A stretch of DNA of 34,304 nt from positions 1 to 34,304 of IMG/VR virus record IMGVR_UViG_3300035181_000782, one strand, 5' to 3'. The notes under the pieces were generated by a model. It was not told the origin of the DNA. It made no database searches and saw only the letters and a list, made by a program, of their open reading frames with translations. A program made the translations under genes and the position numbers. Below are positions 1-21,081 of this stretch, piece after piece. Origin of the DNA: a virus. Each line of letters opens with the position of its first letter. Positions within the stretch are counted from its first letter, which is position 1.

Positions 1-1753
1 CTGCCAATTTTCCTGCATACCATGAATCACCACCGGGGAAGCGTTCAGCATTACTGACTTTTATGGATAAGGTTTCGACTGTCATGGTTGACGTGACGTT
101 GAGCCGAAACACGCCATGCACCCGAGTTGGATTAGCCCAGCCGATGATGTGTGATTTGTCCGCCGCACCAGTGACCGTGATGTTGCTGGCACCCGATGGC
201 AGCGCCGGAGTGATGTTTGTCAGGGTGTTTCCGTTGCTGATACCTGACCATGTGTATTTGGCCCCACCGATAAAGAATTCGCCATAAGTCCAGGTGTATG
301 GCATCAGGCCGGGCACGGTCAGGGTAGTTTCACCTGCGGGAACTGTTGCAACTTGGTAGGGAATGATGTGACAGTAAATTGTGGCAACGATGTTGAAGGC
401 CGTATGCTCTTCGTTGAGCCAGACAGTTTCTGTTGACCCGACATAAATGGACAAAACGGAAGGGTTCCAATTACTTACTCCATTAACGATCACAAAAGGG
501 CCATAAGTAATCGTTTCGTCAGAATCAGGAAATGGCAAGTTTGCAAACGACCAACTGGCATTCAGGTAATTTGCAATGGCGAAGTTGAAGCGGTCGCAAT
601 CTTGCGCGACGTAGCCCTCATATTCAGCCACTGTGGCCTCACGACCTGTGCCCGTTCCAAGGATCAGGCAGGGCTTGACCGACCAATGCGTATTGGCCGG
701 GTAGTCCGAGTATTGCCAGACGCGGTTCGGCGGGCCTTGGCTACCCTCCAGAAACAGACCTTTGCAATTGGTGACGCTGTAGAAGCGGGTGCTGTCACTG
801 GTTGCAATGCCGTAAAGCAGCGCAGCCCCTTTGCCAGCGTTGAGCGTTTTGAATTCAAGGGTGAGGCTGCTGCCATTGGTCACGCCAAACGCGGTGTCAA
901 GCGTGATGGAGTAAAACTCTCTCTCGACCCATTGGTCGCGTGTCTCGTAATGCTTGGGGTAAATCACCCCAGCCCATACCAGCACGCCGTTGGCACGGAT
1001 TTGCACCGCAGCGTCATACCCGGCGCCGCTTGGCTTGCCCAGTGCCATCCATAGCCGCAGCACGGCAATGCTGGCGGTGATGCGCGGCACCATCGTGATG
1101 TGGGTGATGATGGGGGTAGCCTCGTCATACGGGTCAGTGCCCCACAGCGGCAGGCCCAGCGTGGTGGTATCGACGTGGCTGAACTCCCAAAACCAGCGGG
1201 GATCACCGGGCTCGCGGTAAACCACGTCGCCGTCGTCTATCCAGCATGGGCCTTCCAGCACCGGGCCGGTGTCCACTGTGCCGGTCACATCACTGATGCG
1301 CAGGGTGAGGTGGTGCATGTTGTGCGTGTGGCTCATGACCTCCACCAAGCCAGTGGCAACCCAGCCACGCAACACGTCCCAGCGGCTGAAACCATTTTCC
1401 GAATCAAACGCACCCAGGCGGCGGCTGATGATGGCCAGCCCGCAGGGAATGCCCTGTGCAATCAGCCATGGCACGATCAGATTGAGGGACTCCAGGCAAT
1501 CGTCAAAGTGCAGGCAGGTGACAGGGTGGTCAAAGCTCATGGTGCCTGCTTGCCAGGCCTTGTATTGGCTGACCGACACGATCTGATAGCCCGCACGCTT
1601 GAGGCTGCGCACATGGGCCTTGATGTCACCCAGCGACTCACGAAAGGTGAGCGCCTGCGAGCGTATGGCCACACAGCCGTGATAGCAGACGCAGGTGGGA
1701 TACAAGCGGCGCTTGGTACGCGCGGTTTCCTGCCCCAGCAACGAGGTGAACAT
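1..1753 (-). CDS. Tail-associated protein with N-terminal polysaccharide-deacetylase-like (CE4/NodB) domain, partial
   Basis: The minus strand is open from an ATG at 1753 to the window edge, 584 codons, so the C-terminus is missing. The N-terminal ~160 residues look like a carbohydrate esterase family 4 domain: a YH pair near residue 24, an amphipathic stretch ending LKRAGYQIVSV (51-61), the metal-site motif HFDD (82-85) and SHTHNMHHLT (141-150), in which H142 and H147 have the five-residue spacing of PgaB/IcaB-type deacetylases. The rest is Trp/Tyr/Thr-rich and beta-like, as in tail or carbohydrate-binding modules. It lies directly downstream of the tape measure gene and an 89-residue gene, so it is probably part of the tail tip. 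I infer that it deacetylates a host surface polysaccharide during adsorption. If the window is circular, the frame continues into the tail protein at the right edge. Confidence 0.72.
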   Translation of the reverse strand, partial: MFTSLLGQETARTKRRLYPTCVCYHGCVAIRSQALTFRESLGDIKAHVRSLKRAGYQIVSVSQYKAWQAGTMSFDHPVTCLHFDDCLESLNLIVPWLIAQGIPCGLAIISRRLGAFDSENGFSRWDVLRGWVATGLVEVMSHTHNMHHLTLRISDVTGTVDTGPVLEGPCWIDDGDVVYREPGDPRWFWEFSHVDTTTLGLPLWGTDPYDEATPIITHITMVPRITASIAVLRLWMALGKPSGAGYDAAVQIRANGVLVWAGVIYPKHYETRDQWVEREFYSITLDTAFGVTNGSSLTLEFKTLNAGKGAALLYGIATSDSTRFYSVTNCKGLFLEGSQGPPNRVWQYSDYPANTHWSVKPCLILGTGTGREATVAEYEGYVAQDCDRFNFAIANYLNASWSFANLPFPDSDETITYGPFVIVNGVSNWNPSVLSIYVGSTETVWLNEEHTAFNIVATIYCHIIPYQVATVPAGETTLTVPGLMPYTWTYGEFFIGGAKYTWSGISNGNTLTNITPALPSGASNITVTGAADKSHIIGWANPTRVHGVFRLNVTSTMTVETLSIKVSNAERFPGGDSWYAGKLA

Positions 1754-2048: not shown

Positions 2049-4493
2049 TTAACGGCGAAAGGCTAGGGCCTGGGCGCGCTCGATTTGGCGCTGGCTGCGC
2101 CGGAAGCTGTCGGCGTCGGGGGTGGTGATGTTCATGACCACGGTGCCCGCACCGCCACCCTGCCCGCCGTCTTGGTCGGCCAAGTTACGAATGACATCCG
2201 CATATTTGGCGGGCAGGATCATTTCACTAGCGTGCGCCTGCACGACCGGGTTGACGTTGCTTGGGATGTCATAGCCCATCGAGGCGCTGATACTGGGGGC
2301 GAAAGCCATTGCGGCCGCAAAAGCAGCAGCACCTGCGGCGGGCGCCAAGGCAGGGCCAACAATGGGAATCGCTGCCGTGCTGGCGACCGCCGCTGAACCA
2401 GCAACGCCCGCGTTCGCAGTCGTCAGAGACAGCGCCGTGGCCTTGCCGTCGATCAGCTCTTTGATTTGAGTAATCGCCCACTCTGCAAGCATTTTGCTGG
2501 CAACCTGCGCGAAGGCTTGGAGGATCATGTCAAATGCGCTCTTAAAGATATCAGACATTTTAACGGTGCCCGTGGCGATCCCTTGCAACAGATTTGCCAT
2601 GCCCGACTCCATCCCTTTGAAAAATTCGGTCTGGTATTTGTTGTCCTCCACTGCGGCAGCCTTCTCGATCCCGGCCTTTTTGAGCGCGTAAGCCTGCTCA
2701 ATGGCAAGCATCTTGTCCTTCTCTTTTTGCAGCGCGACAGCCGAACTATTTGGATCGGAGGCCATCAATTTGATGCGCAACTGTTGCGCAGCGGTAGCAA
2801 TTTGGAACTTTTGCTCTTCATACGCCGCTTCGGCAACCAGCATTTGCGCCTTGGTGATCTTGCCCAGCGCCAGGTCTTTGTCGTAACCATCCTTGACCAG
2901 TTCGATTCGGTTTAGGTCGGCCTTTTCATCGGCGCTGATCTCTTCGTCGGTCATGGCCTTGTCATCGGCAGCGGATTTCTTGCGGACAGCCAGGATGGCA
3001 GCCGACAGCTTTTCCTCGACCTTCAATTTGTCGCCATTCGCCACTTGAGCGTGCGCGACCTTGGACTGCCAAAACACCACGTCCATCGACAGCGATCGGG
3101 TTTCCAGGTTGTTTTCCAGCTCGTAGTGATCCTTGGCAAGCCGGTTTTCAATCTCCCAGCCACCGACAGCCGACTTCTCTTTTCCGGGCGTGGCATCCTT
3201 TGCGGACTTGTCCTCGTAGTGCTTGCCTTTGGTGTCCAGTGGCTTCGCGTCGAATTTCGGGCCGTTCTTGTTCGATTCACCGTTTGCCGCTTTCGCAATG
3301 GCATCGCCAATCTCAGCCGCCTTTTTCATGATGCGGTTGCCAGAGGCCGACAGAATGCTTTCAATGTCGTTGGTGCCCTGCGTCCAGGCCGCCTTCACGC
3401 CGCTAAAGTTCAAGGTCATGGCGTTGTAGGCAATGTTGGAAAACATCTTGAGGTAGGCCACCGTGATTTCGATGGCTTCGCTGATGCCCTCAAACGCCAT
3501 TGTCAGGCCCAGCTCCAGGCCCAGCGCCGCAATCTTGACCACCGCGAACACATTGGCGAGGAACTGCATCGCCGTGATGCCCCGCCCTGCCCCGCCGCCA
3601 ATCGCGTCCCCAATGGCTGAAAAACAGTCGGCCACGATGTCTTTGAGGTCGATAGCCGTATTAATCACGATGCGGAAAATGTCTGCGAGGTTTTCCATGA
3701 CCACGGCCATGACCTTGACGCGGGCCGGGCCGGTGCTGGCAAACATTTCGGCCAGTTCGGTGAGTACCGGGATCAGGGCGCGTCCAATGGCGTTCTGGAT
3801 GCCGTCCATGACCAAACCGACTTGCTCCATCGCTTCCTTGTAAACCTTCATCTCACCGGCCTGCTGGGGGCCGATCACCAAGCCCAATTCTTCGGCCTTG
3901 ACTTTGGCATTCTCCATGACCTCGTTGTTCAGCTTCATCAAGGCAGTTGCTTCGGCAGCACCGCGACCGAACAACGCCTGGGCGGCCAGGTTGCGGTCGG
4001 TGCCTTCCTTGTAGCCCTTGAGAGCTTCGACCGCGCTGCTCATGATGGCCTGACCATTCAACAGGTCGCCGTTTGCATCGCGCGTGACCACCCCCATCGC
4101 CTTCAAGCCTTCTTCGTTTGACTTGAGCTGGCGCGTCAGGCGCATGTTCACGCCAGCGTAGGTATCAGCCGATATGCCCACGCTCTTGATTGCGACATTG
4201 AGCTTGCTTGCCTCCTCGCTGGAGATACCCAGCGCCTTCGACAAACTCACCGCTTCGCCGCTCATTTCCTTGGCGGCAGCCACGCCACCGGCAAACAGAG
4301 AGCCACCACCCAGGATCACCGAGAAACCGATCAGCGCCGTTTTGAGCTGGCCGAATCCACCGGCTAACCCGTCCAGGCTACTTTTCATTTCATCGGTCTG
4401 AGTCTTGACCGCGCTGTTGGCTTGAGAGAGCCCCGAGAATAATTCGTCCAGCTTGACACCAAACTGGACTAAAACCTTGTTTTCATCTGCCAC
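2049..4493 (-). CDS. Tail tape measure protein
   Basis: This 814-residue protein is the length ruler and scaffold inside the tail tube. Its size, its position after gpG/gpGT, and its hydrophobic glycine-rich segments (about residues 45-75 and 285-340) fit the family, as does the long charged, helical middle region (about 440-620). The segment around residues 650-690 resembles the C-terminal domain of lambda-type tape measure proteins. An Ala-rich hydrophobic stretch follows, then a charged C-terminus with several Arg. Translation appears to start at GTG (4493-4491), as no in-frame ATG lies close by; the purine-rich AGGGG upstream is a modest ribosome binding site. The stop of the frameshifted gpGT product lies only 16 nt upstream. 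The length would predict a tail of roughly 120 nm by the usual ratio of about 0.15 nm per residue. Confidence 0.9.
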   Translation of the reverse strand: MADENKVLVQFGVKLDELFSGLSQANSAVKTQTDEMKSSLDGLAGGFGQLKTALIGFSVILGGGSLFAGGVAAAKEMSGEAVSLSKALGISSEEASKLNVAIKSVGISADTYAGVNMRLTRQLKSNEEGLKAMGVVTRDANGDLLNGQAIMSSAVEALKGYKEGTDRNLAAQALFGRGAAEATALMKLNNEVMENAKVKAEELGLVIGPQQAGEMKVYKEAMEQVGLVMDGIQNAIGRALIPVLTELAEMFASTGPARVKVMAVVMENLADIFRIVINTAIDLKDIVADCFSAIGDAIGGGAGRGITAMQFLANVFAVVKIAALGLELGLTMAFEGISEAIEITVAYLKMFSNIAYNAMTLNFSGVKAAWTQGTNDIESILSASGNRIMKKAAEIGDAIAKAANGESNKNGPKFDAKPLDTKGKHYEDKSAKDATPGKEKSAVGGWEIENRLAKDHYELENNLETRSLSMDVVFWQSKVAHAQVANGDKLKVEEKLSAAILAVRKKSAADDKAMTDEEISADEKADLNRIELVKDGYDKDLALGKITKAQMLVAEAAYEEQKFQIATAAQQLRIKLMASDPNSSAVALQKEKDKMLAIEQAYALKKAGIEKAAAVEDNKYQTEFFKGMESGMANLLQGIATGTVKMSDIFKSAFDMILQAFAQVASKMLAEWAITQIKELIDGKATALSLTTANAGVAGSAAVASTAAIPIVGPALAPAAGAAAFAAAMAFAPSISASMGYDIPSNVNPVVQAHASEMILPAKYADVIRNLADQDGGQGGGAGTVVMNITTPDADSFRRSQRQIERAQALAFRR

Positions 4494-16724: not shown

Positions 16725-17026
16725 GCGCCTGCAAACACGGTATTGACCACGATCTAGAGTGCCACCAGTGCGAGGATGAATTTGAAGCGGCCAAGGCGAA
16801 AGTGCCAACGAAGAAACCCATGCCATCACTTGAGCAAATGATCGCTGTGATTAAGTACAAAGAGCGCATCGGGCGGGAATGGAAACGCTGCCTTCTTGAT
16901 GCCTGGGCTTGCGGCGAGGATGAAGGCGAACGCGACGACTACTTACTGCGCCAAGTCCGCAACCAGTTCGGCCCGGCTTGGATACTTGCCTTTGATCCGT
17001 CCGATTACGTCATCACTCAGGCTTGA
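16721..17026 (+). CDS. Small early protein with Cys pairs, unknown
   Basis: The 101-residue protein starts MSACKHGIDHDLECHQCEDEF; C4, H6, H10, C14 and C17 could bind a metal. A charged helical middle and an aromatic C-terminus follow. It ends the first early operon; its last 14 bases overlap the end of the convergent ParB-like gene, so neither strand has room for a terminator there. No function is assigned. Confidence 0.6.
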   Translation: MSACKHGIDHDLECHQCEDEFEAAKAKVPTKKPMPSLEQMIAVIKYKERIGREWKRCLLDAWACGEDEGERDDYLLRQVRNQFGPAWILAFDPSDYVITQA

Positions 17027-17783
17027 ACGGATTCTCAACTTCGACGTGGCCCTCCGGGGCCATGTCCGCGTTCAGGTCGTAGCCAAGCGCGTCGGCCAGC
17101 AGTTCACCGTTCTGGTATCTGCTTTGATCCCACTTGCCTTTTCCCTGTTCGATGAACCTGACCGCGTGCGGCTCGTCCCTGAACACGAAGACCAGATAAA
17201 ACTCGCTGGTTTCCTTCGCCTTGTTCCGGCTTTTGATTGTGTCGTACAGCTCCGATATGGTCGCCAACTGTTCGGCCATCTTTGCAGCATCTTCGCTGCG
17301 GGTCTCGAACGGGCTGGTGCCGAGCAACTGATACACGTCAGCCGCTTCAAACCCGGTGCCCATGATTTCCACGTTCACGTCTTTGAGCATGGCATCCAGG
17401 GCTTCAATGTCCCACTGGCCTTGTGCCATCGTGTTGTTGAGCAGGATGTTTAGTTCCTTCTCGCGCCCGGTGTCCACATCAATCGCGGCGACCCGCATGG
17501 TGTAGTCGGGTGTGCCCATCAGGCTATCCATGATTGCAATGCGCTGGTGCCCACCCACGATCAAGCCGCTGCGCTTGTTCCAGGTCGGCGGGCTCACCAA
17601 GCCGTGACGTTTCAGCCCGGCCTTGAGTTTGCGCTTCTGGTTGTCGGTCAACTGACGCGGGTTATACGGTGCGCCCTTGAGTTCGCTACGGTGGACTTCA
17701 ACCACTTCGTAGTTCTCCAGGTGCGCATCACTTAGCGTTTTTATCGGGGTAGAACCGGGCATGGGCTTTGAAGACTTCTGCAT
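17013..17783 (-). CDS. ParB/Srx-like domain protein (IbrB-like)
   Basis: The 256-residue protein has a ParB-type N-terminal domain: VEVHRSELKGAPYNPRQLTD (about 28-47), then an LKRHGLVSPPTWNKRSG turn and the core motif VGGHQRIAIMD (about 76-86). The C-terminal half is helical and charged. ParB-like proteins of this size next to PAPS-reductase-like proteins match the IbrA/IbrB pair described in E. coli prophages. The reading overlaps the end of the PAPS-reductase-like gene by 56 bases; a start at 17762 (MPGSTP) would shorten the overlap, and neither start has a strong ribosome binding site. The last gene of the minus operon; role unknown. Confidence 0.8.
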   Translation of the reverse strand: MQKSSKPMPGSTPIKTLSDAHLENYEVVEVHRSELKGAPYNPRQLTDNQKRKLKAGLKRHGLVSPPTWNKRSGLIVGGHQRIAIMDSLMGTPDYTMRVAAIDVDTGREKELNILLNNTMAQGQWDIEALDAMLKDVNVEIMGTGFEAADVYQLLGTSPFETRSEDAAKMAEQLATISELYDTIKSRNKAKETSEFYLVFVFRDEPHAVRFIEQGKGKWDQSRYQNGELLADALGYDLNADMAPEGHVEVENPFKPE

Positions 17784-18405
17784 AGGGGAAATACTCTTTG
17801 ATGGTTGCGAAGTCGCGCGGGTGGTATTCTGAAACCCACTTCATTGACTTGTGTGTCAGGCCGATGCCACTGGCGTTCGACCCTGACTGTTGCGGGATCG
17901 GGATACCCTTGGCTTGCAGGAACGCCAGCACGTCAAACTTGTTCCAGCTTTTTAGCGGATTGATCACGGTGTCCCAATGGGCCGTGCCCTTCATGAAACG
18001 CCGCCGCCAGGAACTGTCAGCCGCCTTGGCACCAACAGCCACAAAGTCGCAGCCGGTGATTTGCCGGGCGAACTCGTAAAGGTCTTTGAGCTTGTGGTCG
18101 GGGAACAGTCCCAACTCAGGCCAGGGGTCAATGAACGCACAGCCGCGCAATGAAGCGAAGCTGACCCAATGCGGTATCTCGATGGGGGTGATGCCCCAAC
18201 GTGTTTTGCAATAGTCCATCCGTTCCTGCTCATGCTCCAGGCCGGGGACGAAATACATGTGGACGGCTTCGACGCGCTTAAACGTCTTTATGCACAAATC
18301 CATCAACGCCAGCGAGTCTTTGCCGCCAGAGTACATCACAGCAACCGAGTCGCCCTTTGTGGCGGCGACCCGGAGAATGTCCAGCGTTTCCTCCAGACGA
18401 TCCAT
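17728..18405 (-). CDS. PAPS reductase/PP-loop ATP pyrophosphatase-like protein (IbrA-like)
   Basis: The 225-residue protein has the PP-loop signature MYSGGKDSLALMDL (about 24-37), which in this superfamily activates a substrate with ATP. A central region with CAFIDPWPELGLFP and a C-terminal KSWNKFDVLAFLQAKGIPIP segment agree with PAPS-reductase-type proteins. In phages and prophages such proteins are usually not involved in sulfate assimilation. It starts a few bases after the second 66-residue gene and overlaps the ParB-like gene. Possible roles are nucleic-acid thiolation or modification, or gene activation as reported for IbrA/B; none is shown by the sequence. Confidence 0.82.
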   Translation of the reverse strand: MDRLEETLDILRVAATKGDSVAVMYSGGKDSLALMDLCIKTFKRVEAVHMYFVPGLEHEQERMDYCKTRWGITPIEIPHWVSFASLRGCAFIDPWPELGLFPDHKLKDLYEFARQITGCDFVAVGAKAADSSWRRRFMKGTAHWDTVINPLKSWNKFDVLAFLQAKGIPIPQQSGSNASGIGLTHKSMKWVSEYHPRDFATIKEYFPYAEVFKAHARFYPDKNAK

Positions 18406-19731: not shown

Positions 19732-21081
19732 ATGACAACCGCACAACAAACCTTTGACTTTTCCCGCTTCACCAAGAAACAACTGCAAGTAATCGCCGCC
19801 AACGCTGGCCTTCGCAAGAATTGGGCACCTATCAGCATTGCCGAGATTCGCGGCATGTTGAGCTCGGTCAGTTTTGACCGGATGCGCGTGGCGCTTCTTC
19901 GCAGCGAAGTCGATGAATCCGATGTTGACGACCTGATCATTGACGTGGGCACCCCGGGCGCTTATGACGTGAACGACGATCTGACCGAAGTGGTGAACGA
20001 CGAAGCCGACGAAGCGGCCGAAGTGGCCGACGAACTTTTCACGCCGGTCAAGGCTACCCGGCAGGTGGTTAAAGCCGCCGCGCCGGTAGTTGGTAACGTG
20101 TCCGATGTTGCCGCCGCCCTTGCCGGGTTGCTTGCCTCGGGTGGCACCAACGAAGCACGGGTGACTGAAATTGCCCAGGCCATTGCAACGGCCACTGCGC
20201 ACGATGCGATGGGCGTCGTGCAGATCGAACTCCAAACCGATCTGGCCAGAATGAAAAGTTTCGTGAAGGATGCCATTGCAGCCGCCACTGTCAACCTGCC
20301 CACACAGACCATCGTGCAGCCGGTGATTGGTGAGCCCAAGAAACTGCCCGGCCTTGTCCACGCCAGGTTTGAGCGGGTTTACAAGCTGGCCAGCCTGCGC
20401 CAGAACGTGATGCTGGTCGGCCCCGCCGGTTGCGGCAAAACGCAACTCGCTGAAATGGTTGCCGATGCGCTTGGACTGTCGTTCTCGTTCCTGTCCTGTT
20501 CGGCAGGCATGAGCGAGTCACAGCTTCAAGGCTGGTTGCTGCCCACGGGTGACAGCGGCCAATTCTCTTACGTGCCAGCCGCGTTCGTGACCGCCTACGA
20601 AAACGGTGGTGTGTTCCTGCTTGATGAAATTGACGCGGCTGATGAAAACCTGCTGCTGGTGATCAACAGCGCACTAGCCAACGGCAAGTTTGCTATCCCC
20701 CAACGCTACGACAACTCGGTGGCGAAACGTCACGCTGACTTCTGCATGATCGCAGCGGCCAACACCTACGGCAACGGCGCGGATCGTGTCTATGCTGGTC
20801 GCAACCAACTTGACGGCGCAACGCTCGACCGATTCCGCACCGGGATGGTCACGATGGGCTATGACGCGAACGTCGAAAGCGCCCTGGTGGACACCGAGGT
20901 TCTGCTGTGGGGCGCGGCCATTCGTGCCAAGATCGAAGCCAACAAATTGCGCCGCGTGATGTCAACCCGCGTACTAATCAACTACACCGCCCAAAAGAAT
21001 GCTGGCCTGACGCGCAGCGATTGGGAAGAGTCTTACTTCTGCGACTGGTCACGCGATGAACTGTCCAAGGTCGGACGCTAA
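19732..21081 (+). CDS. MoxR-like AAA+ ATPase
   Basis: The 449-residue protein has an AAA+ core in its second half: Walker A GPAGCGKT (230-237), Walker B VFLLDEID (294-301), a sensor-1-type CMIAAANTYG near 340-350, and DRFR, a candidate arginine finger, near 375-380. The pattern agrees with the MoxR/CbbQ (AAA_5) group. The N-terminal ~190 residues hold a SAP-like or helical segment (SRFTKKQLQVIAANAGLRKN) and an acidic linker. MoxR ATPases usually act with a VWA-domain partner encoded next to them to remodel proteins, and a VWA-like gene follows here. The start follows a CTGGAG site. Confidence 0.85.
   Translation: MTTAQQTFDFSRFTKKQLQVIAANAGLRKNWAPISIAEIRGMLSSVSFDRMRVALLRSEVDESDVDDLIIDVGTPGAYDVNDDLTEVVNDEADEAAEVADELFTPVKATRQVVKAAAPVVGNVSDVAAALAGLLASGGTNEARVTEIAQAIATATAHDAMGVVQIELQTDLARMKSFVKDAIAAATVNLPTQTIVQPVIGEPKKLPGLVHARFERVYKLASLRQNVMLVGPAGCGKTQLAEMVADALGLSFSFLSCSAGMSESQLQGWLLPTGDSGQFSYVPAAFVTAYENGGVFLLDEIDAADENLLLVINSALANGKFAIPQRYDNSVAKRHADFCMIAAANTYGNGADRVYAGRNQLDGATLDRFRTGMVTMGYDANVESALVDTEVLLWGAAIRAKIEANKLRRVMSTRVLINYTAQKNAGLTRSDWEESYFCDWSRDELSKVGR

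Follow-up and report, generated by a model that had tools for sequence, protein, structure and literature searches.

The deacetylases described from phage tails are mostly SGNH enzymes that act as O-deacetylases, and they are metal-independent. PgaB, the PNAG N-deacetylase of E. coli, A. actinomycetemcomitans and B. bronchiseptica, combines a CE4 domain with a GH153 domain. We take the aspartate pair of its first motif to be D114-D115, with the first Asp of the pair acting as the CE4 catalytic base. The residues that coordinate its metal include D115 and H184 (PMC13366581), and deacetylation is abolished in the D115A mutant (PMC9384988). PgaB and IcaB are of the NodB2 type. This type is circularly permuted: MT5 (consensus VLMYH) comes first, the AYPYG-like MT3 lacks the first proline and MT4 is absent (PMC10967932).

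We analyzed a linear IMG/VR record over its whole length of 34,304 bases (the window), in which a minus-strand ORF runs into the edge. The ORF (positions 2–1753, minus strand) begins at ATG 1753, has no stop by base 2 and encodes 584 residues of a multidomain tail-tip protein; because the contig stops within the gene, the product is a fragment rather than a whole protein. The start agrees with that of the closest relative, L008 (MFTGLLGG). On the basis of homology, motif conservation, a split domain, a fold match and gene order, we think it likely that this is a tail-tip CE4 de-N-acetylase of NodB2 type, with a split catalytic domain followed by GH18 and DUF2460 domains, that acts on an amino-sugar glycan of the host.

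Gene neighborhood and the CE4 half-domain

The original prediction set the gene in a tail-tip cluster, and its neighbors agree. On the minus strand, it follows a tail tape measure gene (2049–4493; phrog_2854, E = 4e-34) and, in the interval between the two, an ORF of 89 aa (1759–2028); in the corresponding position L008 has an ORF of 89 aa and L009 one of 90 aa. The tail-tip order in L008 is tape measure, 89-aa ORF, CE4 gene, baseplate hub, NlpC/P60 and Rcc01698-type megatron; the first three of these genes are also present in the window. A search for a contig continuing the window beyond its end gave no exact match. PHROGs has no family for the CE4 ORF, nor has PADLOC. We regard antisense ORFs across the CE4 gene as a consequence of its G+C-rich coding sequence. 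Elsewhere in the window, neighboring minus-strand ORFs match a ParB-like family (17013–17783) and the phosphoadenosine phosphosulfate reductase family (17728–18405), and an ORF at 19732–21081 has hits to phrog_249, which carries the label porphyrin biosynthesis (E = 1.7e-55), and to ATPase families.

The first half of the putative CE4 domain occupies residues 12–152 (1298–1720, minus strand). Motif 1, HFDD (residues 82–85; 1499–1510), and the stretch SHTHNMHHLT (141–150), which contains motif 2, HTHNMH (142–147; 1313–1330), lie exactly where they had been reported, both on the minus strand. Taken without profiles, these motifs are suggestive of CE4; FDD and Hx4H at suitable spacing occurred in 27 of 20,000 residue shuffles. 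The CE4 assignment goes beyond them because two profile matches decide it, those to NCBIfam PgaB (TIGR03938, E = 2.1e-8, 32.9 bits, residues 22–148) and to the PgaB structure 4u10 (E = 7e-6, residues 44–149). The second best profile match was IcaB (4wcj, E = 0.003). The 32.9 bits come from the CE4 first half only, and the curated TIGR03938 cut-off of 321.9 bits covers CE4 plus the C-terminal hydrolase; we therefore call the module PgaB-type, not PgaB. Judged by profile, the deacetylase-like domain predicted at the N terminus is a genuine PgaB/IcaB-type CE4 half-domain, the window holding its first half only.

The order of the motifs is that of NodB2. An MT5-like CYHG (residues 23–26; 1676–1687, minus strand), whose H25 is invariant in the family, stands first at the N terminus and is followed by DD, by HTx3H and, in relatives, by a YPFG without leading proline. 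Thus the tandem Asp of CE4 motif 1 and the H-x3/4-H of motif 2 are both in the window (82–85 and 142–147); motif 3 (YPFG, residues 638–641 of L008) and the remainder of the domain are seen in relatives, as the window ends before them. In the alignment, D84-D85 pair with the PgaB DD, and H142 and H147 with two PgaB histidines. Since PgaB D115 coordinates the metal and D115A is inactive, D85 is the expected ligand, together with H142 and H147, and D84 the expected base; this corrects the proposal that D84 binds the metal. No SGNH/GDSL Pfam match was found in the window, L002, PMBT3, L009 or L020. Together with the CE4 fold match described below, this bears out the predicted difference from the SGNH enzymes that make up most described tail deacetylases.

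Scans that covered viral contigs, bacterial genomes, phages and plasmids revealed relatives, full-length or partial, in a dozen viral contigs (L005 and L006 encode one identical protein), as well as in a contig of a Rhodocyclaceae MAG (L009), two Acinetobacter phage-plasmids and Pseudomonas phage PMBT3 (gp023; L007 in the viral set). PMBT3 was the sole match of the window fragment among 50,697 phage records; the other matches listed for the whole L008 protein cover the DUF2460 part only. C23, H25, D84, D85, H142, N145 and H147 are invariant in an 11-row alignment. L020 keeps H25, both aspartates and both metal histidines, with Asp at the position of N145, and both aspartates and both metal histidines are visible in L028, L030 and L031. 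Between the window and L008 the CE4 half has a dN of 0.20 against a dS of 1.54, the latter near saturation; with dN below dS, this half is under purifying selection. A tree of the part covered by the window pairs it with L008 (support 100/100) and nests it in a seven-member group (support 94/93) in which every other protein carries DUF2460. In the Acinetobacter indicus plasmid pAI02 (L021, 7000–9100), the CE4 part is apparently interrupted by an IS21-looking transposase element, with IstA/IstB-like frames recognized by reading only.

A catalytic domain split by two inserts

In the relatives, two β-rich insertions, amounting to ∼360–520 extra residues, separate motif 2 of the CE4 domain from motif 3. 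YPFG lies ∼420–580 residues past the motif-2 histidine, versus 60 in 4u10 (counted in alignments from the second motif-2 His to the motif-3 Pro). The order is insert A, a strand-helix segment and insert B, and all three begin within the window on its minus strand. Insert A (residues 153–360, ∼208 residues; 674–1297) is a predicted β-sandwich/jelly-roll that is weakly CBM-like. The segment GTGREATVAEYEGYVAQD (residues 361–403; 545–673), placed by profile alignment to 4u10 and 5bu6, corresponds to the strand-helix that precedes motif 3 in PgaB. The start of insert B (residues 404–584; 2–544) is β-rich and is cut by the contig end, ∼100 residues short of where L008 has motif 3. At the place of insert B, L020 gave an F5/8 type C match that is weak and below cut-off.

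When the inserts were excised in silico, the resulting 276-position profile aligned in one piece, across both splice points and through motif 3, to 4u10 (2.2e-14), 5bu6 and 3vus. All hits below E = 0.1 were PgaB or IcaB chains; otherwise there was one P450 at E = 0.9. The part after insert A was also searched alone, as a test independent of the first half. Its best match among 177,635 sequences was PgaB 5bu6, in the right place (E = 0.027), and its best NCBIfam families were TIGR03938 (PgaB, E = 0.047) and IcaB (E = 0.061), values that are weak singly but all three of the same kind. These alignments indicate that the CE4 catalytic domain is discontinuous, split by two inserted β domains. The expected match to PF01522 depended on the inserts: the window fragment fell under the 23.1-bit cut-off (16.3 bits, E = 0.0097), as did L009 with its inserts in place (22.6 bits), whereas L008 with inserts excised reached 31.4 bits. 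Inserted domains can thus hide a catalytic domain from domain searches.

Residues 1–725 of L008 were modeled with middling confidence (pLDDT 68, mostly 75–94 in the first CE4 half and partly under 50 in the C-half). Foldseek gave PgaB structures as best hits (4e-9, probability 1.00), and IcaB, PplD and BC0361 reached the same probability, so that the anticipated fold match to both PgaB and IcaB was obtained. TM-scores normalized by target length were 0.39–0.50 for single-domain targets and 0.33 for BC0361; such low scores would be in line with a partly modeled domain. The model of insert A (window residues 150–372, pLDDT 74) is a β-sandwich. Its fold search included CBM35, CBM32 and CBM6 among the hits, and because these CBM-like matches are only weak (best E of the search, 3e-3), no binding family is claimed.

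C-terminal domains, proposed mechanism and target

Untruncated relatives carry a GH18-type domain after CE4, and the ones most closely related to the window have a GTA-type distal-tail domain, DUF2460, at the C terminus. In L002/L004 the GH18 domain matches YdhD (3cz8, E = 7e-13), and DUF2460 matches PF09343 (E = 1.4e-58) and Rcc01695 (6tba, E = 2.6e-32). L008 and L009 are arranged in the same way (PF09343, E = 8e-58 in L009). The GH18 family PF00704 was above cut-off in PMBT3 and below it in L002/L004 and L009. The PMBT3 and L020 proteins end without DUF2460, and L030 and L031 end, by reading, after GH18. DUF2460 of the relatives is also matched by the Dit of roseophage R4C, which is a hexamer (PMC10276861). 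Both domains lie past the window end and are known from relatives; DUF2460 is expected in the window protein because the window nests within the DUF2460-bearing group. On this comparison, the deacetylase is predicted to be one module of a longer polypeptide that also contains GH18-type and distal-tail domains. Two observations concern annotation and repeats. In L008, 11136–11780 matches phrog_2913, named glycoside hydrolase, which covers DUF2460 (residues 1051–1264) and not GH18, so that the name looks misplaced. In L030 (9000–11693), a stretch like insert B is seemingly repeated in the GH18 part, where NEANPTLYVGVAFGTYTDGTKVDSKF resembles NEADPMLYLGVAFGTYGDGTLVDSKF (by reading only).

We propose the following mechanism, in which activity, substrate, insert role, copy number and what the window's protein has at its C terminus are predictions. 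The N-terminal module would be an active de-N-acetylase that depends on a metal; its CE4 domain would belong to the circularly permuted PgaB/IcaB class (NodB2), with a β-sandwich inserted behind motif 2 and a second β-rich domain ahead of motif 3. The whole protein would continue with GH18-type and DUF2460 distal-tail domains, as in the nearest relatives, and DUF2460 would locate both enzymes at the ring of the distal tail. As the phage adsorbs, the inserts may bind a glycan of the host surface that is rich in N-acetylated amino sugars; the CE4 site may strip acetyl groups from this glycan, and the GH18 domain may cut or grip the chain, which would let the tail tip pass through. The phage therefore probably edits host surface sugars during attachment. 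A more elaborate version is tentative at best: a PgaB-type de-N-acetylase built into the distal ring, its split CE4 enclosing glycan-binding β-sandwiches and joined to GH18 and DUF2460, several copies of which would ring the tail tip and breach a poly-GlcNAc-type matrix by deacetylating and then cutting it, with the chemistry of the cell's own synthesis. The presence in a tail protein of an N-deacetylase that needs a metal and is of the biofilm-polysaccharide type would widen the chemistry known for phage entry and would indicate amino-sugar polymers as receptors or barriers. PMBT3 is a named, isolated phage that carries the family, which makes the proposal directly testable.

Peptidoglycan is the main rival target because of the GH18 type, whose nearest matches are enzymes of the spore-wall type (YdhD). 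Deacetylation of GlcNAc/MurNAc and strand cutting by CE4 and GH18 would then aid wall penetration. PMBT3 gp023 was deposited as a peptidoglycan hydrolase, and L008 has an NlpC/P60 gene among those for its tail tip, although such proteins are usual at GTA-like tail tips. The CE4 subtype, however, is that of PgaB/IcaB (NodB2), and no PgdA- or PdaA-type peptidoglycan deacetylase was among the sequence searches or fold hits shown. Their absence is not decisive, because PplD, a non-PNAG wall-glycan deacetylase, appears among the fold hits. We regard peptidoglycan as a rather unlikely target. A role as glycan-binding receptor domains, in which neither the CE4 nor the GH18 fold is catalytic, would suit the two sizeable insertions close to the active site. 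It would also suit the GH18 site (catalytic motif DxxDxDxE), where the residue two before the catalytic Glu is Asn in 10 of 13 sequences and Thr in L028 (Asp only in L030 and L031); GH18 hydrolysis is uncertain because the usual Asp is mostly Asn. Yet the Glu is kept in all 13 sequences with a readable site, and DD, the metal histidines, the MT5 histidine and YPFG persist across members differing at more than half of their residues. We consider a purely binding role improbable.

A narrower form of the favored reading, de-N-acetylation of an amino-sugar glycan, has PNAG or another poly-GlcNAc exopolysaccharide as the specific substrate and receptor. From kinship PNAG is plausible. Acinetobacter contributes two members and a Pseudomonas phage one, and PNAG loci are known in both genera; the closest solved relatives are PNAG deacetylases, and in PgaB, too, CE4 is linked to a glycoside hydrolase (PMC13366581). 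The CE4 subtype does not fix the substrate, however, since NodB2 includes PplD as well as functionally uncharacterized proteins, and the second enzyme here is GH18, not GH153. In the Rhodocyclaceae MAG that carries L009, a search for PgaB found none above the family cut-off, which leaves a PNAG operon, and PNAG synthesis in this host, without support. The narrower form is accordingly possible but doubtful. The same MAG encodes, at 1171–2217 of L032, a protein that is LysM-type by reading, with a PgaB-like CE4 (E = 1.4e-26) under the cut-off.

Comparison with known systems

Phage N4 gp64 was predicted by Phyre2 to be a poly-GlcNAc deacetylase in the BASEL paper (PMC8594841). We rejected it as a CE4 precedent: its gene (L022, 8758–10011) has a TIM-barrel tail-sheath family, PF23845, as sole Pfam match to E = 0.1 (E = 3e-69), and gave no CE4 match by sequence. 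Our guess is that the Phyre2 hit was to the barrel of PgaB. Our literature search found no PgaB-type CE4 shown by sequence in a phage tail protein, with coverage that is incomplete and leaves absence unproven. PMBT3 gp023 (YP_009796574.1, minor tail protein / peptidoglycan hydrolase) is itself a family member, with split CE4 and GH18, but is without DUF2460, and its record is silent on CE4.

With PgaB the phage family shares the CE4 subtype and motif order, the helix before motif 3 and the pairing of CE4 with a C-terminal glycosidase domain. PgaB differs in being an outer-membrane lipoprotein of the producer cell, with a continuous CE4, GH153 and no tail domain; the phage proteins have a split CE4, with the long spacing given above (∼420–580 versus 60), and GH18. 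The IcaB-type enzyme of Ammonifex degensii (4wcj) has the same NodB2 CE4 motifs, but IcaB-type proteins are single-domain and cellular. HFTV1 gp31, a turret head protein of an archaeal virus, is likewise a virion CE4-like polysaccharide deacetylase with a Zn site and an adjoining galactose-binding-like domain; it is located on capsid turrets rather than a tail, its best match is 3RXZ and not PgaB, and its deacetylase is reported as one stretch (PMC12494034). The C-terminal ∼205 residues of L004, L005, L008 and L009 resemble RcGTA Rcc01695 and the roseophage R4C distal tail protein, which, unlike these four, carry no fused enzymes. G7C gp63.1, Aristophanes gp41 and Possum gp66 are likewise tail enzymes that deacetylate a host glycan at adsorption, but they are O-deacetylases with the SGNH/GDSL fold. 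The CE4 described here differs from these tail deacetylases in that, by subclass and motifs, it is PgaB-type, and it lies in a phage tail protein.
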